In this document: positions 35,920 to 53,307 of the stretch, piece after piece
Layout of the letters: each line of letters starts with the position of its first letter
How positions within the stretch are numbered: the stretch's first letter is position 1
Assembly (NCBI GenBank): GCA_026713105.1
Contig: JAPOPC010000050.1
Span: forward strand, 1-64,000
Direction: 5' to 3'
DNA: 64,000 nucleotides
From: Acidimicrobiaceae bacterium
GTDB taxonomy: Bacteria; Actinomycetota; Acidimicrobiia; Acidimicrobiales; Poriferisodalaceae
Program-made: the position numbers and the translations under genes
Notes under the pieces: generated by a model
What the model was told of the DNA's origin: nothing
What the model saw: only the letters and a program-made list of their open reading frames with translations
Databases searched by the model: none

Positions 35920-36450
35920 TCACAGGAAAATCGCCAGATTCTGCGTGCGCAAGACGGATTCATCGATCTCGATATCCCGCGATCGCAGGCGCAGCCCGTC
36001 CGTGGTTGGGACCAGCACGTCAGTACGGCCAGCCGACAGCAGGCTCGGCGCCGTCCGGTCCCCCCGAGACCGGTACAGCAGCACGGCCGATTCCACCCTG
36101 AGCTCGTCGCCGTCGCCCGCGAACGTTCGCACGTTGGAAACGTGGTGGCGGATCCGGCTCTGGGGATCTTCGGTCCACGCGTAGTCGGTCCCGAAGCGCT
36201 GCACCCGCTTCTGCAGGGAATACCAGTCTTCGTCGAAGTGGTGCATGGTCTGCACTTCGGCTTCGTCGGCCGCCTTGACGGCAGTCACCCGCACCGGCAT
36301 CCGGTAGCGGATCTCGGGGGCCATCAACTCGAGCCAGCCCTCGAAATCAGACGTGTCGAGCAGATGCGCTTCTTCGGTCAGAAACTGCGCAGCCGACTGG
36401 TGCCGCGCATCGGTATAGGGAAGCGGGTCCCCGGACTGCACGGGCCTCAC
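35920..36450 (-). CDS. Aromatic-ring-hydroxylating dioxygenase beta subunit
   Basis: The 176-residue protein is the small NTF2-fold subunit of a Rieske dioxygenase (FLTEEAHLLDTSDFEGWLEL, IRYRMPVRVT, HHVSNVR). It stabilises the alpha3-beta3 oligomer. The GTG at 36450 overlaps the alpha-subunit stop by GTGA, which fixes the start and suggests coupled translation. Upstream in-frame sequence is only the alpha gene read in another frame. Confidence 0.9.
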   Translation of the reverse strand: MRPVQSGDPLPYTDARHQSAAQFLTEEAHLLDTSDFEGWLELMAPEIRYRMPVRVTAVKAADEAEVQTMHHFDEDWYSLQKRVQRFGTDYAWTEDPQSRIRHHVSNVRTFAGDGDELRVESAVLLYRSRGDRTAPSLLSAGRTDVLVPTTDGLRLRSRDIEIDESVLRTQNLAIFL

Positions 36451-37817
36451 TCCGGCTGCTCCCCCATGCCGAAGGCCAGCGGCTCGTGGGCAGGCGCCGG
36501 CTGGGACACAAAGTCGGCCCACATCGAGAACCAGTGGCGCTGGTTGTGCTCGCCGAAGCCCTGATAGGCCGTGCCCGGGCCGCCGAAGCGTTCGAATTGA
36601 TCGACGATCGGATCGCCGTCGAGTGTGAGACCCATGCGGTTGTTGAGCAGAAGGTTCCGCGCCATCGAGCCCCGAGCCATGGTCGTGATCGAGACCCAGT
36701 TCTCGACGTCGTCCTGCTCGAACATGCCCGAGGACCCGAAGCACATGAGATACGCCTTGTAGGACGCGGCCTTGTAGTCGTCCGGGGCGTCGGCAGCCAC
36801 GCAGAACCACGAGTACACCTCGGTCTCGCCCGGTCCCACGGGTTGCCACAACCGGACGGAGATGAACGGGGTGATCCGCCCGTCGGCGTCGGTCTGCGGC
36901 CAGTTGTGGACGAAGCTCAGATTCGGGAAGAGCGTCGATGCGGAGGGCATGAAACCCGGCTCTGCGGCCAGCGCTCGCTGGGCAGGGCTCAGCTTGGCCT
37001 CCATGGCATCGATCATCTCGTCGGGGTAGCCGACGTAGGCCAGTCCTGATCTGAATTCGCTGCCGGCCGGCAGCTTGTAGGTGGTGCCGCCTCCGGGACC
37101 GGCGTGCCACAGCACGCCTTCTTTACGCTTGTATGGCCTCGGTTCGCCGAACAGCTCGATGTCGACCACGCTCGCGTGCGTGTGAGGCGTGTGGTAGCTG
37201 TCGCCCATGAAGTTCTCGGCGCCGATCTTCCAGTTCGCTTCGACGCGCCAGCGCTGCGGGCCGCGGAATTCCATCCCGGCCGCGCTCTGGCCGGTGTAGA
37301 AGTCGAGATAGAAGGCGAAGTCGCCGAGCCAGTACTCGAAGTCGGGAGAGTCGGGGTCGAGGCTGGCGAAGATCATCCCGTTGCGGACCGCCACCGATGG
37401 CGCATCAAGCAGCGCCTGGCCTTCCTTGATGAAGCCGGCGTCGCCGCCGTAGGCGTCGGCGTGGAAGGGCAGGCCAGCGAGCTGGCCATCGTTCTTATAG
37501 GTCCAAGCGTGATACGGGCAGCGAAAGGTACGGGCGCTCCCCCGCTCGGCCCGGCACACCTGCATGCCCCGGTGGACGCACATGTTGAACATCACGTGGA
37601 CCTGCCCGTCGGAGTCGCGGGTCACCAGGAACGAATCGTCCCCGATGTTCCGCACGACGTAGTCGTTCGGCTCGGCGATCTCGGACTCGTGAGCGAGAAA
37701 GTTCCACGACCGGCCGAACAGGCGTGATCGCTCGAGCTCGTGCACCTCGGCGTCGTTGTACAGGTAGGCAGGAATCAGGCCCTGGCGCACGGCTGTGGTG
37801 ATCTCGTCGATCTCCAT
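36447..37817 (-). CDS. Aromatic-ring-hydroxylating dioxygenase alpha subunit
   Basis: The 456-residue Rieske oxygenase has the [2Fe-2S] ligands Cys80, His82, Cys100 and His103 (CVHRG and CPYHAWTY) and the mononuclear-iron histidines in GDSYHTPHTH (His209 and His214). It adds both oxygen atoms of O2 to an aromatic ring. The ATG follows GAGGAGG. Ferredoxin and reductase genes are missing from the operon and must come from elsewhere. The aldolase gene ends 16 bases upstream. Confidence 0.93.
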   Translation of the reverse strand: MEIDEITTAVRQGLIPAYLYNDAEVHELERSRLFGRSWNFLAHESEIAEPNDYVVRNIGDDSFLVTRDSDGQVHVMFNMCVHRGMQVCRAERGSARTFRCPYHAWTYKNDGQLAGLPFHADAYGGDAGFIKEGQALLDAPSVAVRNGMIFASLDPDSPDFEYWLGDFAFYLDFYTGQSAAGMEFRGPQRWRVEANWKIGAENFMGDSYHTPHTHASVVDIELFGEPRPYKRKEGVLWHAGPGGGTTYKLPAGSEFRSGLAYVGYPDEMIDAMEAKLSPAQRALAAEPGFMPSASTLFPNLSFVHNWPQTDADGRITPFISVRLWQPVGPGETEVYSWFCVAADAPDDYKAASYKAYLMCFGSSGMFEQDDVENWVSITTMARGSMARNLLLNNRMGLTLDGDPIVDQFERFGGPGTAYQGFGEHNQRHWFSMWADFVSQPAPAHEPLAFGMGEQPE

Positions 37818-37833
37818 CGCTCCTCCTCGGGCA

Positions 37834-38574
37834 CTAGTTCAGCCCAAAACCGTCGCGGTCCAAGGCAGCCAGGTGGTGCCGCCACAGGGTCTCACGATTG
37901 AAGGCCCCGCCGAGATCCGGCAATTCGGCCAGGTCGGCGTCCGGTATGGCCTCGGGGATCGCCCCCGCAGCGCGCACGCGCAGGTGCATGCGGGCCAGCG
38001 TGTCGATCTGCAGCGCCCGCAGCACCGCCTCGGCGACGTCAGCACCCGTGGTCACGACGCCATGTCCCTTCAGCACCAGTGCTGATGCGTTGCCGAACGA
38101 CGTCACCATCTCCGCGGCAAGGTCGTCGCTACGGATGAGGACCGAGCGCGGGTGGACGGGTATGCCTGCCGCCGCGAGATGGGCGGCGGGAATGTCGTAG
38201 GCGCCGAAAATCGGCTCGAGCGCGAACCCGGCGAGGCTCGCCGCCACGACATCGGGCGGGTGGGCGTGCACCACACACCCAACATCGGGATGCGCCGCGA
38301 GCACGGCCGTGTGGATTGGCAGCTCGCTCGGGGTTGCGTAGTGCCCTGCTGTGTTGTCGACGATCTCACCGGAATCCAGATCGACCACACGTACGTCGTC
38401 AGCAGTCGTGAATCGCAACCCGCTCTCCTGGGGTCCGCGGCACCTCACCAGCGCTCGCCCGCCATCAACGCGGAGACTGATGTGCCCCAAAATGTTCTCG
38501 ACCAGACCACGGTGCGCCATCACCCGGCACCCGACAGCGACCTCCCGCCGAAGTCCATCCAGACCATCGCTCAC
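37834..38574 (-). CDS. Class II aldolase/adducin-family protein
   Basis: The 246-residue protein has the zinc ligands of class II aldolases in HTAVLAAHPDVGCVVHAHPP and a catalytic Glu/His region further on (LKGHGVVT). It may split a ring-cleavage product, or act as a decarboxylase like those in phthalate-type operons. It begins the operon that continues with the dioxygenase subunits. The start codon is GTG. Confidence 0.88.
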   Translation of the reverse strand: MSDGLDGLRREVAVGCRVMAHRGLVENILGHISLRVDGGRALVRCRGPQESGLRFTTADDVRVVDLDSGEIVDNTAGHYATPSELPIHTAVLAAHPDVGCVVHAHPPDVVAASLAGFALEPIFGAYDIPAAHLAAAGIPVHPRSVLIRSDDLAAEMVTSFGNASALVLKGHGVVTTGADVAEAVLRALQIDTLARMHLRVRAAGAIPEAIPDADLAELPDLGGAFNRETLWRHHLAALDRDGFGLN

Positions 38575-38708
38575 GGTCCGAACCTATAGCGCCGCGCACA
38601 ACCCAATACCCGAACACTGTGCGGTGCAGCCAGTGATTCCCCAAAGAAGCAACCGCCTACTGGTTATCGTCCTGCGAATGGCCATAGGCAGCATCGTCTA
38701 GAGGTGAA

Positions 38709-39896
38709 ATGAGTACGAGCGAGGACGTGACAGGTCCGCTGGCGGGGGTTCGGGTGCTTGACCTGTCGTCGGTGCTCATGGGTCCGGCAGCTACGCGCAC
38801 GCTCGGGGATCTCGGTGCGGATGTCATTTTCGTGGAACCCGCGAAGGGCGACCGCAACCGCACCATGGGGTCTGGCCCCGTCGAGGAGTTCTCGGGGATC
38901 GCGCTCAACCTGCTGCGCAACAAGCGCAGCATCGCGGTCGATCTCAAGCAGTCCCGTGGCCGCCAGGCCTTCCTGGACATCGCTGCGACCTGCGACGTGA
39001 TGATCACCAACCTCCGCCCCGCGCCGCTGCACCGGCTCGGCCTGCACTACGAGGCCGTCCGGGACGTTCGCGACGACATTGTGTTCTGCCGGGCTCACGG
39101 CTACCCGTCATCCAGCGAGCAGGCAAACGCTCCCGCGTACGACGACATCATCCAATCCGCAAGCGGCGTCGGCGATCTCTTCCGCCGCATGGGCGCTGAG
39201 CCGATGCTGCTGCCCAGCCTCGTGGCCGACAAGGTCTGCGGCCTGACCATCGCGAACTCGGTGACAGCGGCCCTCTTTCACAAGGCCCAAACCGGGCAGG
39301 GGCAGTGCATCGAGATCCCGATGGTCGACGTGATGCGAGCGTTTGTGCTCACCGAGCACGGCTCTGGCGCGATTTCCGAACCTCCCGTCGCCGACGCCGG
39401 CTACGCCCGCATCCTCACGCCGGAGCGTCGGCCTCAGCCGACCGCCGACGGCTGGATCAACATCCTGCCCTACGACCATTCGCACTACGTCGCGCTCTTC
39501 GAAGCCGGCGGGCGGCCAGATCTCGCAGCCGACGAACGTTTCGCAACGCCCATCGAGCGCGTCACCCACAGCGACAGCCTGTACCGAGACGTCGCAACGG
39601 TGCTCACGCAGCGCACCACCGCCGACTGGCTGAATTTCTGCGAAGAGCACGGGATCCCCGCAACTGAGGCCGCCACGCTTGACGAACTCATCGACCAGCT
39701 CCCGATCGATGAGCATCCTGTGGCCGGCCCGTTCCGGGTCATCCCGCCTCCCGAGCAGTTCTCCGAGACCCCACCCAGCATCCGGCGACCTGCACCAGGC
39801 ATCGGCGAGCACGGCCGCGAGATCCTGGCTGAGATCGGCTACGACTCTGCCGAGATCGACGGCCTCATCGACGCAGGCGTTCTCACCGTGCCCTGA
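38709..39896 (+). CDS. CaiB/BaiF-family CoA transferase
   Basis: The 395-residue class III CoA transferase has the N-terminal GPLAGVRVLDLSSVLMGPAATRTLGDLGADV and IAVDLKQSRGRQAF motifs of the family. It moves CoA between carboxylic acids, for example in activation of bile-acid-like, carnitine-like or aromatic acids. Length is normal. It reads divergently from the dioxygenase operon and may activate a substrate for it. Confidence 0.92.
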   Translation: MSTSEDVTGPLAGVRVLDLSSVLMGPAATRTLGDLGADVIFVEPAKGDRNRTMGSGPVEEFSGIALNLLRNKRSIAVDLKQSRGRQAFLDIAATCDVMITNLRPAPLHRLGLHYEAVRDVRDDIVFCRAHGYPSSSEQANAPAYDDIIQSASGVGDLFRRMGAEPMLLPSLVADKVCGLTIANSVTAALFHKAQTGQGQCIEIPMVDVMRAFVLTEHGSGAISEPPVADAGYARILTPERRPQPTADGWINILPYDHSHYVALFEAGGRPDLAADERFATPIERVTHSDSLYRDVATVLTQRTTADWLNFCEEHGIPATEAATLDELIDQLPIDEHPVAGPFRVIPPPEQFSETPPSIRRPAPGIGEHGREILAEIGYDSAEIDGLIDAGVLTVP

Positions 39897-39942
39897 CATG
39901 CATCGAAATACAACCAAGAGCGAGGCAGGCCCATCACTACGA

Positions 39943-40018
39943 TCGCGAGAGGGCCAGCCCCCCGGTTGCTACCCATGAGGGGTTGCTCTGCCAACTCCGG
40001 GGCGACTGGCCTCTGCGA
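39943..40018 (+). other. Long imperfect hairpin in an intergenic region, possible RNA element
   Basis: Between the CoA transferase and the LLM gene, a 76-nt segment folds by eye into a long stem. TCGC (39943-39946) pairs with GCGA. AGAGGGCCAG pairs with CTGGCCTCT with one bulged G. CCCCGG (39960-39965) pairs with CCGGGG (39997-40002). An inner ACCC/GGGT hairpin lies at 39971-39983. No T-run follows, and the LLM start is 58 bases downstream. A cis-regulatory RNA is possible but the class is not recognised. Confidence 0.5.
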
Positions 40019-40075
40019 GTCAGCGTAACAAGCCGCCCATGATGGCGATGGCCGGGCTTCGGTAGGGTCGCGACG

Positions 40076-41287
40076 GTGAAGTTTGCAGCGTTCCTGGCGC
40101 CCCACCATCTTCCCGGCGAGAGCCCGGCGCTGCAGCTGCAGCGGGATCTCGACCTCGTCGCGCAGCTTGACCGGCTGGGCTATGACGAGTTCTGGTGCGG
40201 CGAGCACCACTCGACCGGCTGGGAGACCATCGGCTCGCCCGAGATGTTCCTGGCCGGCGCAGCCATGCGCACGGGTCGCATCAAGCTGGGCACCGGGGTC
40301 ACCTCGATCCCCTATCACCACCCCTTTCACGTCGCCCAGCGCATTGTCCAGCTCGATCAGATGAGCCTCGGGCGCGCAATGCTCGGCACCGGACCGGGCG
40401 CGCTGCCGTCTGACGCCCACACACTGGGCATCGACCCGATGCTGCTGCGAGACCGCCAGGACGAGGCGATCCCGGTCGTCAAGCGGCTGCTCGCCGGCGG
40501 CGAACGCTTCACCTATGAGTGCGACTGGTTCTCGCTGTACGACGCCAAGCTGCAGATCCTGCCGTACCAGCACGAGATACCGATGACGACGGCATCAATG
40601 ATCAGCCCGTCGGGTATGACCCTCGCCGGCAAGTACGGCATGGGTGTGCTGTCGATCGGGTCCATGTCCACCGAGGGCCTGGCGTCGCTGCCGCTGCAGT
40701 GGAGCTTCGCCGAAGAGGCCGCCGCCAAGCACGACCAGGTCGTGGACCGTGCCAACTGGCGGGTGATGTTCAACTTCCACGTGGCGCTCACCCGCGACCA
40801 GGCCCGGCGCGATGTCGAGCACGGGCTGCTGCGGTGGCACAACGAGTACAACGTCGACACGCTGCAGCGTCCGGGCCTCGAACACCTCGGCTCGACGGCC
40901 GACGCCATCGACTTCTACGCCAACCCCGAGACTGCGGCGGGTGTCATCGGCACACCCGACGACCTCATCGAGAACATCTTGCAAATGCAAGAGATCACCG
41001 GCGGGTTCGGCGTGATGATGGGTTTCGTCAACGACTGGGCCGAGCCCGAGGCCATGTTCCGCAGCTGGGACTTGGTGGCGCGCCACGTCATGCCCGCCGT
41101 CAAGGGCCAGCTCGCGTCGATGCAGGAATCGAACGAGTTCGTGATCGAGAATCGTGAGTACTTCGACCGGGCAGGCAAGGCGATCCTGGCGAAGATCTTC
41201 GAGAACAAGCGAGCTGCCGAGGCCCTCAAGGGCGCGGGCACCCCCAAGGGCGGCTTCACGCCCCGGGTCGGCGCCGATACTGACTGA
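40076..41287 (+). CDS. Luciferase-like (LLM) flavin-dependent oxidoreductase
   Basis: The 403-residue TIM-barrel protein belongs to the bacterial-luciferase-like family (AAFLAPHHLPGESP, LDRLGYDEFWCGEHHSTGWE, GTGVTSIPYHHPFHVA, LGRAMLGTGPGALPSD). It uses reduced FMN or F420 to oxygenate or oxidise a small molecule such as a terpenoid, alkane or sulfonate. The start is the GTG at 40076. The structured segment at 39943-40018 lies just upstream. Confidence 0.9.
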   Translation: MKFAAFLAPHHLPGESPALQLQRDLDLVAQLDRLGYDEFWCGEHHSTGWETIGSPEMFLAGAAMRTGRIKLGTGVTSIPYHHPFHVAQRIVQLDQMSLGRAMLGTGPGALPSDAHTLGIDPMLLRDRQDEAIPVVKRLLAGGERFTYECDWFSLYDAKLQILPYQHEIPMTTASMISPSGMTLAGKYGMGVLSIGSMSTEGLASLPLQWSFAEEAAAKHDQVVDRANWRVMFNFHVALTRDQARRDVEHGLLRWHNEYNVDTLQRPGLEHLGSTADAIDFYANPETAAGVIGTPDDLIENILQMQEITGGFGVMMGFVNDWAEPEAMFRSWDLVARHVMPAVKGQLASMQESNEFVIENREYFDRAGKAILAKIFENKRAAEALKGAGTPKGGFTPRVGADTD

Positions 41288-41464
41288 CAGCGGCAGCGGT
41301 CGACGACGACCGAACTGATCGGGGACAACGACTGGAGCTGACGGCCGCTGCAGCACTTCTGGGATCGGCAACGGCTCGCATAGGGTGCGGGCATTCCGAC
41401 TTCTGGAGATCCCGCCCGGCTGGAAGCTGCCATTGGTGTCACCGCGCCTGTCCTGCAGTCAGGC

Positions 41465-42499
41465 ATGGGAGGTGTCGCCGGGCCCGAGCTGGTGGCTGCG
41501 GTGAGCAATGCCGGGGGTTTGGGAACCCTGGCCGCGTTGAATCTGAAGCCTGATGCGGTCCGCGCCGGCATCCAGCGAGTGCGAGAGCTGACAGATCGGC
41601 CGTTCGGCGTCAATATCTGGCTTCACGACGATGTGCGCTACCCGCCTGATGTCGCCGAGCACTCGGACTTGGTCCGCTCGGTCCAGAGCGTGTTCAACGA
41701 GCTGCGCCCCCGCTTCGATCTCGCCCCGACGCTTGAGGCGCCCCGGCCCGTGCCCGATCTCGTCGATGCCGCGCTCGAAGTGATGGTCGACGAGCGCATC
41801 CCGGTCTTCTCCGCAGGGCTCGGGATTCCCGAGCCTGGACTGGTCGATCAGTTCCATAAGGCCGGCGCCAAGGTCGTGACGATGGTGGCGACGACCGTCG
41901 ACGCCGTCAACGCCGTGGACCAGGGAAGCGATGTGGTAGTCGCACAGGGACTCGAAGCGGGCGGGCATCGCAGCCACGGCCGCAAGCTCACCGCCGCGGA
42001 GGCCGCCGGGATCGGCACGTTCACACTCATTCCCCAGGTCATCGAGGCGATTGACGATCGGGTGCCCGTGGTGGCTGCCGGCGGCATTGTGGACGGGCGC
42101 GGCCTCGCGGCAGCCACGATGCTCGGGGCGGCCGGCGTGCTCATGGGAACGCGATTCGTGGCTACCGCCGAGTCCCAGGCGAGCCAGCTGTGGAAGGACC
42201 GGCTCACTTCGGGGTCCGGCACCACAGTGCTCACCGACGGCTTCACCGGTCAATGGGCCCGGGTCCTGCGGTCGGAGTTCACCGATCATTGGGCGGACCA
42301 CGGCAGGCTGCCCCTGCCCGGTCTGCTGCAGGCCGCCGCCTGTGCTGACCTGCAACGTGCCGCCGTCGATGCCGACGACGACCAGATGCAGCCCCTCTAT
42401 GCGGGAGCCGCGTTCGACCTGCTCGACGACTTACCGAGCGCCGCCGACATCGTGACCAGGACCGTCAGAGAAGCTCTCCATCTGCTGGGCAGAGTTTGA
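41465..42499 (+). CDS. Nitronate monooxygenase family protein
   Basis: The 344-residue TIM-barrel FMN protein resembles nitronate monooxygenase (GPELVAAVSNAGGLGTLAAL, RPFGVNIWL, GLEAGGHRSH with the catalytic His, PVVAAGGIVDGRGLAAA). The first ATG at 41465 cuts off the first barrel strand: in-frame codons upstream, back to a TAG at 41381, encode GVTAPVLQSG, which fits the family. They offer only CTG (41420, with GGAG eleven bases upstream) or ATT codons as starts. The true N-terminus probably uses a non-standard start. Confidence 0.85.
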   Translation: MGGVAGPELVAAVSNAGGLGTLAALNLKPDAVRAGIQRVRELTDRPFGVNIWLHDDVRYPPDVAEHSDLVRSVQSVFNELRPRFDLAPTLEAPRPVPDLVDAALEVMVDERIPVFSAGLGIPEPGLVDQFHKAGAKVVTMVATTVDAVNAVDQGSDVVVAQGLEAGGHRSHGRKLTAAEAAGIGTFTLIPQVIEAIDDRVPVVAAGGIVDGRGLAAATMLGAAGVLMGTRFVATAESQASQLWKDRLTSGSGTTVLTDGFTGQWARVLRSEFTDHWADHGRLPLPGLLQAAACADLQRAAVDADDDQMQPLYAGAAFDLLDDLPSAADIVTRTVREALHLLGRV

Positions 42500-42558
42500 C
42501 GAACGACGCGCCCAATCACAGAATTCGGATAGGCGACGAGCCCGATCTGCCCGGAATG

Positions 42559-42576
42559 CCGCCTTGTGTTCGGCGG
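42559..42576. terminator. Short hairpin between convergent genes
   Basis: CCGCC (42559-42563) and GGCGG (42572-42576) enclose an 8-nt loop in the 98-base gap between the nitronate monooxygenase gene and the converging molybdenum-enzyme gene. No T-run follows; this is a weak terminator candidate. Confidence 0.25.
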
Positions 42577-42597
42577 TGACGAGACGGTCGGATCGAA

Positions 42598-44865
42598 CTA
42601 GCCGGCAGCGGTGCCGGCGTGCAGCGAGCGCCAGATCTTCTCGGGCGTCAGCGGGAGATCGAGGTGTTCGACGCCGTAGGGCTCGAGAGCATCCAGCACC
42701 GCGCTGTGGAGAGCAGGGGTCGCGACGACGGTCCCCGACTCGCCGATGCCCTTGACGCCGAGCGGGTTGAGGGGCGACGGCGTCACGGTCTCATCGCACT
42801 CGAAGAACGGCATCTCAGCGGCCGAGGGCAGGAGGTAGTCCGCCAGGCCAACCGTCATGGGAATGCCCTCGTCGTCGTAGAACATCTCCTCGTACAGCGC
42901 CGCGCCGACCGCCAGCGCCAGGCCGCCGTGCACCTGCCCGTGGGCAAGGACGGGCTGCAGGATGACGCCAGCGTCGTCGACGCTCACCAGCCGCCGCACC
43001 TGTACCTCGCCGGTGGAGGTGTCGACCTCCACAGCGGCCACGCACGCACCGAAGGAGAACGAGCCGGCCCCGCCCTCGGATCTGAAATGGTGGTCGACGG
43101 TGAGCTCGCCCAGGTCGGCCCAGCCGAGCGACCGAGCAGGAGTGCCCACCACGTGGAACAGGCCGCGACCGGTGTCCAACGTGACATCGTCGGGGTCGGC
43201 CTCGAGCAGCTCAGCGGCACGTTCACGTGCTGCGGCCACCAAGTCGAGTGCCGCGCCATGGGCGGCTGCGCCGCCGAGCTGCGCGGAGCGCGATCCGATG
43301 GTTCCCCCTCCGATGGGTGAACGATCCGTGTCGTCGTGAGAGATGGTGATGCGCTCGACGTCGATGCCGAGCTGGGCGGCGACCACCGGGGCGAACGTTG
43401 TCTCGTGGCCCTGGCCGTGAGGCGATGTGCCGATCACGACGTCGACGGTGCCGTCTGCAGCGAGCTGAGCCGTCGCACGCTCGCCCTCACCGCCACCGGT
43501 GACTTCGGTGGTGCAGCTCACGCCGATGCCAAGCAGCACGTCGCGGTCGCCGGCTGCACGTCGTTCGGCTTGTTCGGCCCGCAAGCCTTGGTAGTCGGCT
43601 ATCGCGGCGGCCTCTCGAAGCGCTTCGGGGTAGTTGCCGCTGTCGTAAGTGGCGCCGACTGCGCTGCGGTACGGGAACCGATCTGCCTGCACGAGGTTGG
43701 CGAAGCGAACCTCGAGCGGGTCGCGGCCGATGGCCCCGGCGAAACGGTCGACGGCCCGTTCGATCGAGCACGCCGCCTCGGGCCGACCGGCGCCCCGGAA
43801 CGCAACCGTCGGCGTGGTGTTGGTGACCACCGAGGTGCCGCGCAGCGTTGCGTGAGCGATGTCGTAAACACCGGTGCCGCTGTTGCGAAGGTTCGTGGTG
43901 ACGTTGGTGCCCATGGCGGGGTACGCACCGCTGTCCTGCAGGGCGTCGACCGAGTACGCCACGATCGTGCCGTCACGGTTGCCGCCAATACGGATCCGAT
44001 GGCGAGAGGCTCGTCCGTGGCCCATCGCCAGCGACGCTTCCGAGCGGGTCTGAGCCCACCGGATCGGTCGCCCGAGCTCACGTGCCGCCCACGCGACTGC
44101 CACGTCTTCGGGGTAACAGCCCCAGCCGCCCTTGGCGCCGAACCCGCCGCCGACGTCGGGCGATATGGCCCGCACCGTGCCCGGTTCGAGACCGAGCAGC
44201 GTCTCGATCACGTGCTTGGCTCCCGCCGGCCGCTGCGAGCACACCCACGCCGTGCAGCGCCCGTCGTCGCCCCAGCTCGATGCACCGGCAAGCGGCTCAA
44301 TGGGGTGCGGGCCCAGCCGTGGGTGTGCCAAGTCGAACTCGACTGTCACGTCACAGCCATCCCACACGTCGTCGGGCACCGGGTCGAGTTCCCAGGCGAG
44401 GGCGACGTTGGTGCCGGCGTGGGGGTGCAACAGGGTCTCGCCAGCGAGGCTCGCATCGAGGTCGACAACCGGGGTCAGCGGTTCGTAGTCCACGATCACC
44501 CCTTCGGCGGCGTCCACTGCCGCGGCCCGGGTCTCGGCGATCACCAGTGCGATGGGCTCGCCGACGAAACGGACTGTGTCGTAGGCCATGAGCGGCCGCC
44601 ACAGATCCCGATTCATCGACGGCAGGCGGGGCGGGAACGGCCAGCCGTTCACTTCGGGACCGAGGTACACGGCGATCACCCCGCCAGCAGTCCGGGCTTC
44701 AGCCACGTCGACAGAAACAATCCGCGCGTGAGCTTCAGCCGAGCGCACGAAGACGGCCTGCGCCGCTCCGGCCAACTCGGGGACATCCAGCCCATCGATA
44801 TAGGTGCTCTCGCCGCGCAGCAGCGGCTCGTCTTCGCGCCGCCCGTTGAATCCTGAATCAGCCAC
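42598..44865 (-). CDS. Molybdenum hydroxylase large subunit (CoxL/aldehyde oxidase-like), orphan
   Basis: The 755-residue protein is the molybdenum-cofactor subunit of the xanthine oxidase family. The active-site loop reads AFRGAGRPEA near residue 355, close to the AYRGAGR signature of form II CoxL-like proteins and unlike the AYxCSFR of true CO dehydrogenase. The catalytic Glu lies in KGIGESG near residue 708. The FeS and FAD subunits, normally adjacent, are absent on both sides, so partners must be encoded elsewhere. The GTG start at 44865 gives the expected N-terminus. It reads divergently from the redoxin selenoprotein gene. Confidence 0.88.
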   Translation of the reverse strand: MADSGFNGRREDEPLLRGESTYIDGLDVPELAGAAQAVFVRSAEAHARIVSVDVAEARTAGGVIAVYLGPEVNGWPFPPRLPSMNRDLWRPLMAYDTVRFVGEPIALVIAETRAAAVDAAEGVIVDYEPLTPVVDLDASLAGETLLHPHAGTNVALAWELDPVPDDVWDGCDVTVEFDLAHPRLGPHPIEPLAGASSWGDDGRCTAWVCSQRPAGAKHVIETLLGLEPGTVRAISPDVGGGFGAKGGWGCYPEDVAVAWAARELGRPIRWAQTRSEASLAMGHGRASRHRIRIGGNRDGTIVAYSVDALQDSGAYPAMGTNVTTNLRNSGTGVYDIAHATLRGTSVVTNTTPTVAFRGAGRPEAACSIERAVDRFAGAIGRDPLEVRFANLVQADRFPYRSAVGATYDSGNYPEALREAAAIADYQGLRAEQAERRAAGDRDVLLGIGVSCTTEVTGGGEGERATAQLAADGTVDVVIGTSPHGQGHETTFAPVVAAQLGIDVERITISHDDTDRSPIGGGTIGSRSAQLGGAAAHGAALDLVAAARERAAELLEADPDDVTLDTGRGLFHVVGTPARSLGWADLGELTVDHHFRSEGGAGSFSFGACVAAVEVDTSTGEVQVRRLVSVDDAGVILQPVLAHGQVHGGLALAVGAALYEEMFYDDEGIPMTVGLADYLLPSAAEMPFFECDETVTPSPLNPLGVKGIGESGTVVATPALHSAVLDALEPYGVEHLDLPLTPEKIWRSLHAGTAAG

Positions 44866-45056
44866 GGCTGCAACGTAGCCCCCGCGAGCCTGCGGCCCGC
44901 ATGCCGCTGGAGCGGTTCGGAGCTGGAATTCGCCTCGCTGCGGTCTGTCAGCGGGTCGCCATACGCCAAGCCCCTCCTTCTGGGAACACCGCACGCCCGG
45001 CGTGTCATGATCACCGCTGGAGTTCGATGCCTCACGACAGACGATCGGAGCGGACG

Positions 45057-46211
45057 ATGGAGATCACACTTGACACCCGGGGCGGCCCGTCGAATGGTCC
45101 GTACTTCGAGGACGCCGAGGGCTTCAACATGCCGGAGCCGCCCGGCAACGGGAGTCGGCGAATCCCGTTGGGAGACTTTCCGACCGGACCCGACGTGGGA
45201 TCCCGCCTGCCCGACATCGTTGCGACCGACCAGTCCGGCCGCACCGTGGATGTGCACGCCGACCGTGCGGGCCAGCCGGCTGTGGTGGTGTTCTACCGCT
45301 CGGCAGTGTGGTGACCGCCGTGCCGCACCCAGCTGGTCGAGCTGGAACGAGGCATGGATGCCTACCGGGCAGCGGGCGTGCGCCTGTATGCGCTGAGCTA
45401 CGACGAGCCCGACGCGCTGGCCGACTACGCGAAGGCTCACGACACCACGTTCACCATGCTGTCGGACCCCGACAGCGAGGTCATCGAGTCGTTCGGGATC
45501 CTGAACACGCTGATCCCGCCCGATGACCACCCGTGGTATGGCCTTCCGTTTCCAGGGTCGTACGTCGTCGATGCGGACGGGATCGTCGTAGCGAAGTTCT
45601 TCGAGCACAACTTCGCCGTGCGCTCCGGTCCCGAGCAGATGCTCGCTGCTGCTCTCGGCCAAGAATTCGAGGCTGAGGATGTGCGCGGCGGGCAGCCGGT
45701 CGACCGGGTCTCCGCGGAGGTGATGGTCGACGGCGATCGGCTGCCGATGGGCGTCACTCGCCACATCGTCGCGACGTTCCGCGTGCCCGAGGGCCAACAC
45801 CTCTACGGCGAACCTGTGCCCGAGGGCCTGGTGGCTTCAACGATCGAACTCGACGACAGCGACGGGATCCTGTCCTACGAGATGCTGGCGCCGCCGACTT
45901 CACCCCTGACTCTTGCCGGGTCGGGCGAAACGCTGCAGACCTATGAGGGGGATGTGGTGCTGCGGCTTCCGATTGCGCAGAACGCCCGGCAAATGCAAAA
46001 GGACGACGACGGTCGTTACGTCACAATCAGCGGCCGGCTTCGCTGGCAGGCCTGCGACGACAACGAGTGCTTCTTGCCCGAGTCGATGCCGTTCAGCTTC
46101 CGCGTCGAGGCCGGCTTCCCGGTTCTGGGCGACATGGGGCCCGGTGTCGGCCGGGTACCGGCCATGAACGGCGCACAGCACTTCCAGCGCCTGATCGACC
46201 GCCGTGCTTGA
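45057..46211 (+). CDS. Redoxin-DsbD-alpha fusion selenoprotein with in-frame UGA
   Basis: Read through the TGA at 45312-45314, this is a 384-residue protein. Residues 55-210 are an AhpC/TSA-type redoxin (RLPDIVATDQSG, VVVFYRSAVW, then Sec86-Pro-Pro-Cys89-Arg), so the UGA replaces the first cysteine of a CPPC-like redox centre. Residues 230-365 resemble the DsbD alpha domain, with a Cys333-x4-Cys338 pair in QACDDNECFLPE. Redox relay between the two domains is inferred. The ATG at 45057 has GGAG six bases upstream. No signal peptide is seen. A bSECIS-like hairpin follows the UGA. It converges with the linalool dehydratase-like gene, 13 bases apart. Confidence 0.9.
45312..45345 (+). promoter_or_regulatory. 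bSECIS-like hairpin with UGA(Sec), redoxin-DsbD gene
   Basis: After the UGA at 45312-45314 and a 14-nt spacer, CCAGCT (45329-45334) pairs perfectly with AGCTGG (45340-45345) around a GGTCG loop. Spacer, stem length and GGUC loop start are the same as in the redoxin gene at 9621-9654. Confidence 0.83.
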
Positions 46212-46224
46212 GACGATCGGCGCC

Positions 46225-47727
46225 TCACAGATCTGATGGCCGAGCGGACGACCTCGTCCAAGCCTTTCCCCAGGCCGAAGGAGCCAGCTCGATCTCGCCG
46301 TCAACGAGAGGCGTGTCGACGATCAGGTCTCGTTCAGTCGAGCTCACCGTGACACCTTCTGGTCCGGCAATCCGCCATGACCCAGGGGCAGCGCCGACGA
46401 CCCTGAACGTCGTCCGCTGACGTGGCTGGGGTTGCAGCGGTGCCAGGTTGAGCCGCAGCGTGCTGCCGACCCATTCGGCCTGGCGCAGGGCGACACGAGG
46501 AAAGTCGACATCGACCACTTGAGGGCAACGCTCCAGCGGCGCTGCCGAGAGCGCTGTCCAGCGCCCCGGACCGCCCGCTTCGGCCGCCGCCAGGAATGCG
46601 TTGAACTGGCCCCGGGGGTGCTCTTCTTCCAATCCCATGCCCCAGGTGAACTCGCCCCGGTCGTGGTCCCAAGTGGGTTCGTACGACGCCTCGACGGCAG
46701 CCGTCAGCCGTTCGGCGAGGTCGGTCATGCCCCATTCATGGGCCAGCACCAGCGACGACGGGATCCCGCGGCCGGCAATCAGCGGGAGGTCGGGGCTCTC
46801 GTCGAGCCGTGCCGACCGGCAGGCTGCCTCGAACAGGCGCCGGGCCTCGTCGGCCTGCTGGGGAGCCACGTAAAAGGCCGTCGTCAGCGCCGCCCGCACC
46901 GGCAGGCGGTGATGCACGTCGATCAGGGGGTCGTAATACATGGTGGTGGTCGTGGGCTCGGCCTCGCCGACCAGGCCCAGGTAGTGCTCTCGGGCGTATT
47001 CCCACCACGGATCGAAAGCTGCGGGGTGATGATCGGTGCCGTAGCGGTTGTCGTGAAGCCTCAGACCGAGGCCGGCTCCGGCCAGTCAGAACGGCCAGAT
47101 CTTGGTGTTCTCTCAGTGGCAGCCGATCGGGGCGGCCAGCCACTGCTGGCGCAAGTGAGCGGCAATCGCCGAGTGCGTCCACGTGAATGTGTGCTCGCCG
47201 TCGCGAATCATGTCGAACGGTTCGTTCCAACGGCTTTCGGCGGCGATCATCTCGCGGATGCCGAGCAGCACCAAGAAGAAGCCCTTGTAGAAGAGCATTC
47301 CGTCGGCAGCGACCGGATCCATCTGGACGCCCCACGGCTCGGTGCCGTTGGCCGTCCAGCCGGGCACGTCGTATTCGCCCCACAGCTGTCGAGGGATGAA
47401 CGGCCGGTAGGCGTCGGGATAGTTGGCCCGGTCGGGATCAGGACCGAACTGGGTGAGCCAGTCCGAAGCCGACCACCAGCCGGTGTGGCGCTCGATCATC
47501 TGGTCCAGCACGGCGACGTAACGCTCGGTCCACGCCGGTGTGCGATGGGCCATCAGTCCGAGGGCGTAGGACGAGTCGACCAGGTCGAAACGATGCCAGC
47601 TCGCCATGGGCGGATCGGAGCGGTCGTCCCAGTGGGGGTGCGGCTGGCCGGTGCGTGACCAGTCGTCGGCAGTATGGGCCTTGCGATCGAGGTACCGGAG
47701 CCACCCCAGGCTGCGATCGGACAGCAT
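46225..47727 (-). CDS. Linalool dehydratase/isomerase-like protein with two in-frame UGA codons
   Basis: Read through two TGA codons (47115-47113 and 47088-47086), this is a 500-residue alpha/alpha-barrel-like protein. Around the UGAs it reads GCH, Sec205, ENTKIWPF, Sec214, LAGAGLGLRLHDNRYGTD. From memory, the LinD catalytic cysteines C171 and C180 lie in CEPDNYFVQC followed by an L-L-D-GTD pattern: identical nine-residue spacing, with Glu after the first. Upstream LVDSSYALG and FYKGFFLVLLG match the LinD Asp39 and YKGH regions, although His129 appears to be Phe. The reaction may be hydration, dehydration or isomerisation of a terpenoid-like alcohol, which is inference. It is the last gene of a four-gene run, 27 bases after an alpha/beta hydrolase. 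No signal peptide is evident. Confidence 0.87.
47057..47088 (-). promoter_or_regulatory. bSECIS-like hairpin for the second UGA(Sec214)
   Basis: Twelve nt after the UGA (47088-47086), GGCCTC (47073-47068) pairs with GAGGCT (47062-47057, one G-U pair) around a GGTCT loop, the same loop as in the redoxin gene and the E. coli fdhF SECIS. A competing GGCCGG/CCGGCC fold lies just upstream. Confidence 0.78.
47078..47115 (-). promoter_or_regulatory. bSECIS-like hairpin for the first UGA(Sec205)
   Basis: Fourteen nt after the UGA (47115-47113), CTGGCC (47098-47093) pairs with GGCCGG (47083-47078, one U-G pair) around a 9-nt loop beginning GTTCT. The second UGA lies inside this loop. The spacer equals that of the other elements, but the loop is larger and less canonical. 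Confidence 0.6.

Positions 47728-50653: not shown

Positions 50654-53307
<2,654 letters not shown>

Follow-up and report, generated by a model that had tools for sequence, protein, structure and literature searches.

How can a gene interrupted twice by UGA be read to its end, and what protein would result? The question is raised by a gene in positions 1 to 64,000 (referred to as the window) of contig JAPOPC010000050.1, from the genome of an Acidimicrobiaceae bacterium (GCA_026713105.1). The gene most probably encodes a selenoprotein with the fold of linalool dehydratase/isomerase (LinD, an enzyme that hydrates and dehydrates plant terpenes), in which selenocysteine (Sec) is predicted at both columns that hold the catalytic cysteines of LinD. 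This reading draws on homology, the predicted fold, the exchange of Sec with Cys among relatives, a conserved selenocysteine insertion sequence (SECIS) and the presence of the Sec machinery.

The gene and its reading frame

With UGA translated as Sec, positions 47727–46228 give 500 residues, and in-frame UGA occurs at codons 205 and 214 only. The single frame described in an earlier, sequence-only reading is thereby confirmed, and its strand, which that reading did not give, is minus. Under genetic-code table 11, the gene is cut into two open reading frames (ORFs) of 204 and 238 amino acids; a 408-codon ORF that overlaps it on the plus strand is taken as a shadow frame. Since standard gene calling cuts such genes at the UGAs, they are probably misannotated.

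Comparison with the 89%-identical gene of a congener (locus L112) gives a ratio of nonsynonymous to synonymous substitution of about 0.05 (0.025/0.493) before the UGAs and 0.17 (0.100/0.586) after them; purifying selection acts on both sides. Further stops were found in six of 78 loci checked over the matched stretch, all at codon 485 or later, near the C-terminus. A pseudogene, named by the sequence-only reading as a finding that would tell against it, is contradicted by these results.

Relationship to LinD

The read-through protein matches the Ldi profile (Pfam PF18566) with 48.6 bits against a curated cut-off of 26.1, which upholds the family assignment made from sequence. The same profile is matched at E 0.01 or better by 54/54 members of the alignment used here (the window protein and 53 of 80 relatives, some trimmed ahead of terminal stops). 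The closest known protein is LinD (Ldi) of Castellaniella defragrans (PF18566; PDB 5G1U, 5HLR, 5I3T and mutants), at 17–18% identity; it was recovered by profiles alone, a PDB search with one sequence having missed it. NCBIfam gave no family for the protein, and a viral collection gave one weak partial match. The predicted model, compared with LinD by VIA-align, has the (α/α)6 barrel of that enzyme.

The LinD motif CEPDNYFVQC and the D...GTD pattern downstream of it, cited in the sequence-only reading, agree with the PDB sequence. The stretch that contains both aligns without gaps, and UGA-205 and UGA-214 fall on the columns of Cys171 and Cys180, nine residues apart, as had been claimed; in the window protein this stretch reads GCH-U-ENTKIWPF-U-LAGAG. 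Asp-48, conserved in 54/54 aligned members, and Tyr-54, conserved in 50/54, are candidates for the catalytic Asp and Tyr of LinD. A LinD-type active site is highly probable. The protein differs from LinD in that both catalytic Cys are replaced by predicted Sec, and in an extra C-terminal β domain. Its N-terminus, MLSDRSLGWLRYLDRK, has no evident signal peptide by eye; LinD has a signal peptide and is periplasmic.

Exchange of Sec and Cys among relatives

In what follows, states are written as column 205/column 214, with U for UGA and C for a Cys codon. The pattern is more than chance: at both columns, each of the 95 scored loci carries either UGA or a codon for Cys, with 29 U/U, 57 C/U, nine C/C and none U/C. 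The 95 include genes reached by two routes, 80 being distinct over 120 nucleotides (nt); a partial locus (L032) that lacks the UGA region was left out. Because two conserved peptide patterns seeded the scan of GTDB species genomes, from which the best 80 of 90 relatives were taken, the state fractions are not population frequencies. The check proposed in the sequence-only reading, whether homologues have Cys or UGA at both sites, comes out in its favour, and unrelated residues, named beforehand as an adverse outcome, occur in none of the scored loci and only in two distant homologues considered below.

The same two UGAs recur in 24 distinct Sec/Sec sequences from many assemblies. Every U/U record bears the label Actinomycetota or that of a group inside it, mostly Acidimicrobiia; C/U records occur also in bins labelled Gammaproteobacteria, Alphaproteobacteria, Chloroflexi, Myxococcales, UBP10 and Entotheonella. 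Matches occur in 15 of the 39 genomes of the GTDB family. When genomes were drawn evenly from the order, 23/298 matched at 1e-20; among the 20 full-length matches, nine have two UGAs, seven have one and four have none, and three partial matches (G191, G112, G156) are unclassified. One of the four without UGA (G361) is C/C, another (G276) has coordinates equal to those of C/C locus L067, and in the other two (G127, G236) Ser and His take the places of columns 205 and 214.

On trees of 54 and 53 proteins, the first site requires three changes and the second two. A single clade holds the U/U genes along with L035 and L042, both C/U; the C/C genes fall into two groups. Cys/Sec and Cys/Cys relatives (e.g. 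L061 and L096; L067 and L106, the last from Ktedonospora formicarum SOSP1-1) share the motif GxHCENTK(I/V)WPx(U/C) and the Ldi domain with the window gene; unlike it, they have one Sec or none, mostly lack the spacer hairpin described below and, when C/C, have no SECIS. Genome G025 carries a Cys/Sec and a Cys/Cys copy side by side (L024, L033).

Selenocysteine machinery

The source genome contains a tRNA-Sec with UCA anticodon, SelA, SelB, and a SelD that itself has an in-frame UGA. SelA scores over the cut-off in 39/39 genomes of the GTDB family. Among 49 further genomes, this holds for 39 of 42 UGA carriers and for four of seven C/C carriers; the three C/C genomes that stay below it (those of L059, L062 and L067) are Acidimicrobiia bins. 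L074 and 30 of the 80 loci lay outside this test. In 15 genomes of the order, SelA is present in all 11 UGA carriers and in the two with Ser/His; G276 and G361, which appear to be already counted among the 49, lack it.

The SECIS element after UGA-214

A hairpin with a GGUCU loop (H2; Table 1) follows UGA-214. The SECIS of Escherichia coli fdhF, taken from the genome record, is alike in that its GGUCU loop begins exactly 18 nt after the UGA; the window gene differs in having a second UGA 27 nt upstream and an 8-bp hairpin in between. A GGUCU loop at +18 with at least five stem pairs is found in 24/24 distinct U/U and 49/49 C/U sequences, and in 0/7 C/C sequences.

The stem is upheld by covariation. 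Across 71 aligned sequences, of which 70 are distinct, each of the 420 pair cells is a standard pair; one pair of the stem occurs as CG, UA, UG and GC, and a second as CG and UA. Changes on both sides of a pair occupy 20 cells, a count reached by 0/500 shuffles. (Two C/U sequences that contain N were omitted, leaving 47/49 in the synonymous shuffles and 71/73 in the DNA alignment.) Codon choice at residues 221–223 is bent to the hairpin: Gly-221 is GGT and Leu-222 is CTG in 73/73 sequences, and Arg-223 is AGG or AGA in 24/24 U/U sequences, compared with 5.3% of Arg codons elsewhere in U/U genes.

Judged from these sequence data, UGA-205 and UGA-214 are both very probably decoded as Sec.

Weighing the evidence

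Several observations weigh against a LinD-type double selenoprotein. The disulfide that caps the active site of LinD (Cys48–Cys101) is unmatched, since ahead of residue 203 Cys reaches eight of the 54 aligned members at none of the columns, and the His of the LinD KGH motif is replaced by Phe in 51/54. The homologues from G127 and G236 (L115 and L116), which belong to one genus and are about 50% identical, do have Ser and His at the catalytic columns; the otherwise conserved HRFDLVDSSY stretch is changed there too, and they seem to represent a lineage that lost the LinD-type active site. Three UGA carriers (the genomes of L081, L082 and L094) have no SelA over the cut-off; all are metagenome bins, one has a weak match, and single absences can be explained by incomplete bins. 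As for H2, 31/500 shuffles reach its count of two pairs that vary on both sides and 38/500 its count of pair types, Rfam models give no SECIS match at the gene, and the folding energy after UGA-214 is ordinary relative to synonymous shuffles (mean z 0.71 for U/U and −0.35 for C/U). What marks H2 as a SECIS is where it lies, its loop and its compensatory changes; its bulk stability does not. Finally, the neighbouring genes are catabolic in type and too little conserved to name a substrate.

Decoding of UGA-205

The sequence-only reading gave each UGA a SECIS-like hairpin of its own. This stands for UGA-214, whose element is canonical; the hairpin after UGA-205 (H1) is real in Sec/Sec genes, and it has no GGUC-type loop. 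The GGUCU nearest to UGA-205 lies 45 nt downstream, and 23 of these 45 nt are within H1.

Among U/U sequences, all eight H1 pairs are present in 21/24 and seven in 3/24, against a synonymous expectation of 5.86. C/U sequences have a mean of 4.26, and seven or eight pairs occur among them only in the two genes nested in the U/U clade. When folding starts 11 nt after UGA-205, which approximates the stretch that a ribosome there leaves free, mean pair probabilities for H1/H2 are 0.91/0.94 in U/U, 0.11/0.54 in C/U and 0.01/0.00 in C/C sequences; the U/U values are at least 0.77 at all seven start points tried. The joint value for both hairpins in U/U sequences is 0.89, compared with 0.014 for synonymous shuffles, and was reached by 0/100 shuffles for each of the 24 sequences.

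A single SECIS may thus be used twice. H1 would fold the stretch that separates UGA-205 from the GGUCU hairpin and so shorten it, allowing H2 to serve UGA-205 first; a ribosome at codon 214 would then have opened H1, leaving the GGUCU loop at its usual 18 nt. The SelD of the same genome (L119) offers a precedent, with the order UGA, spacer hairpin, GGUCU-loop hairpin, and differs in having a single Sec and its GGUCU loop at +32. Together, the H1 data and this layout put the chance that one shared SECIS decodes both UGAs at about even. Tempering this, H1 shows no compensatory changes, the U/U genes are mutually related, and a GGUC-type loop at +32 is found in only four of 26 distinct SelD sequences of the family (L119, L121, L123, L129), which makes the tandem layout a clear precedent within the genome itself and a loose one in the family.

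A rival that keeps a substantial, if minor, share of the probability is that H1, despite a non-canonical loop, acts as the SECIS of UGA-205, so that the two UGAs are served by separate elements. H1 sits 21 nt after UGA-205, is kept in U/U genes, and has a stem selected beyond the protein sequence. Against this, its loop, UUUUGAC, carries no GGUC-type motif and is unlike the SECIS of this gene, of fdhF, of the genome's own SelD and of the neighbouring redoxin gene; the missing compensatory changes count here as well.

The SelDs of the family are themselves predicted selenoproteins. They commonly have a second hairpin near +32, and in many of them two tandem hairpins follow the UGA; the loop near +32 varies between GGUCU, GGUCG, GGUUC, GGUGC and CGUGC (L119, L120–L148).

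Table 1. Coordinates of the LinD-like gene, its UGA codons and RNA hairpins, and the adjoining gene in the window.
Feature	Position	Strand	Remarks
LinD-like double selenoprotein gene (predicted)	46225..47727	minus	ATG at 47727; terminal UGA 46225–46227; codons 1–500
UGA codon 205, inferred Sec	47113..47115	minus	Column of LinD Cys171
UGA codon 214, inferred Sec	47086..47088	minus	Column of LinD Cys180
H1, spacer hairpin	47077..47099	minus	Stem of 8 bp; UGA-214 in its 7-nt loop; forms in Sec/Sec genes and seldom in Cys/Sec
H2, SECIS	47057..47073	minus	6-bp stem, loop GGUCU 47063–47067; loop 18 nt after UGA-214, 45 nt after UGA-205
C-terminal β-strand domain, about residues 403–485	46273..46521	minus	Outside the LinD match; from secondary structure of the predicted model; VIA-align ranges stop near residue 400
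Convergent neighbour, AhpC-TSA/Redoxin and DsbD_N	45057..46211	plus	UGA 45312–45314 in W-U-PPC; GGUCG-loop hairpin 20 nt after

Possible function

Judged from fold and catalytic pair, hydratase or isomerase chemistry is slightly more likely than not. The sequence-only reading had gone further and named a double-Sec terpenoid hydratase or isomerase; a LinD-type protein with Sec for both catalytic Cys is retained, and the terpenoid substrate and the reaction, which follow from family membership only, go beyond the evidence. The two selenols could form an acid/base pair that, in the manner of LinD, hydrates, dehydrates or allylically isomerises a hydrophobic alcohol or alkene. Sec may help such an enzyme, through its low pKa and through repair after oxidation, because the Cys form, LinD, is oxygen-sensitive according to the available part of PMC6600392. 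The complete mechanism, an acid/base pair of two Sec made from an mRNA in which one SECIS is used twice by way of a spacer hairpin opened by the ribosome, can be proposed only tentatively.

Redox chemistry on the LinD scaffold (peroxide reduction, a selenenylsulfide or thiol exchange, for instance through Cys203-x-Sec205) is unlikely. Known selenoproteins are mostly regarded as redox proteins, as the available text of PMC13188914 has it, residue 203 is Cys in 29/29 U/U loci, and a Sec-containing redoxin adjoins the gene in the window. However, residue 203 is Val in 15/57 C/U and Pro in 5/9 C/C loci, the Sec pair lies on the LinD catalytic columns with their nine-residue spacing, and the redoxin neighbour recurs only in the congener among the loci searched.

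Other readings of the UGA codons are far less probable. Sec insertion generally competes with termination, and UGA-205 might mostly end translation, giving a 204-residue product, with read-through as a selenium-dependent form of regulation; this is very unlikely, as the part after the UGAs is under purifying selection and holds much of the Ldi domain, and relatives carry Cys at both sites. Suppressor-type Cys tRNAs are known in some bacteria, but decoding of UGA as Cys or another residue is scarcely credible here: SelA, SelB and SelD are present, the fdhF-type SECIS tracks UGA exactly, and among 14 tRNA-Sec-like hits the eight examined comprise seven ordinary tRNAs and the tRNA-Sec, the only one with a UCA anticodon (no whole-genome tRNA scan was made). 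Two in-frame stops in an uncultured genome might suggest a pseudogene or a sequencing error, a negligible prospect given the same two UGAs in 24 distinct sequences, the lack of other stops before the C-terminus in 78 loci and the purifying selection, unless one artefact were shared by all assemblies. The suppressor, pseudogene and error readings were each rejected.

Novelty and significance

The family seems to be a previously undescribed selenoprotein family; earlier notice in Deng et al. 2026 or in Haft and Tolstoy 2025 is possible. A literature search found, among the matches listed, no paper joining ‘linalool dehydratase’ with ‘selenocysteine’, and nothing on ‘two UGA codons’ with a bacterial SECIS. 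A 2026 review (PMC13188914) counts 119 selenoprotein families; neither PF18566 nor linalool appears in the available portion of its main text, which refers to Deng et al. 2026 for more selenoprotein candidates from groundwater that need validation. The available text of the deep-Sep paper (PMC12013277) likewise has no mention of linalool or dehydratase. Double selenoproteins known from bacteria (e.g. MduS, MbdU and TsoB) resemble the window protein in having two Sec; as far as the available text of PMC13188914 goes, they have other folds and none belongs to PF18566.

If correct, the double-Sec reading would extend selenoproteins beyond the usual redox proteins, the catalytic pair of a lyase/isomerase fold being made of selenium residues; it would also show how a single element can let a bacterium decode two UGAs that lie close together. 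Relatives of the Sec/Sec, Cys/Sec and Cys/Cys types form a natural series for learning what an enzyme gains from selenium. Interest in LinD comes from the production of alkenes and terpene alcohols, yet the enzyme is oxygen-sensitive (PMC6600392, in its available part), so Sec forms found amid oxygenase-type genes may be useful.

Genomic neighbourhood

The neighbourhood is not conserved across the family; the largest cluster occurs in 15/80 loci, the window counted and many loci being short. Types of neighbour across loci include luciferase-like and FMO-like monooxygenases, CoA ligase, CoA transferase and enoyl-CoA hydratase, as well as acyl-CoA dehydrogenase, P450 and aldehyde-oxidase-type proteins. 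In the window, positions 36447–44994 encode a Rieske oxygenase, a class II aldolase, a CoA-transferase III, a luciferase-like monooxygenase, a nitronate monooxygenase and a molybdopterin aldehyde-oxidase-type protein. The two direct neighbours recur at high identity only in the congener (L112/L019) among the loci searched. The convergent redoxin gene is a second predicted selenoprotein adjoining the first, and is conserved in that congener. Further along the window, on the minus strand at 50654–53307, a catalase-peroxidase-like ORF lies behind a Fur-like regulator ORF, both recognised by eye.
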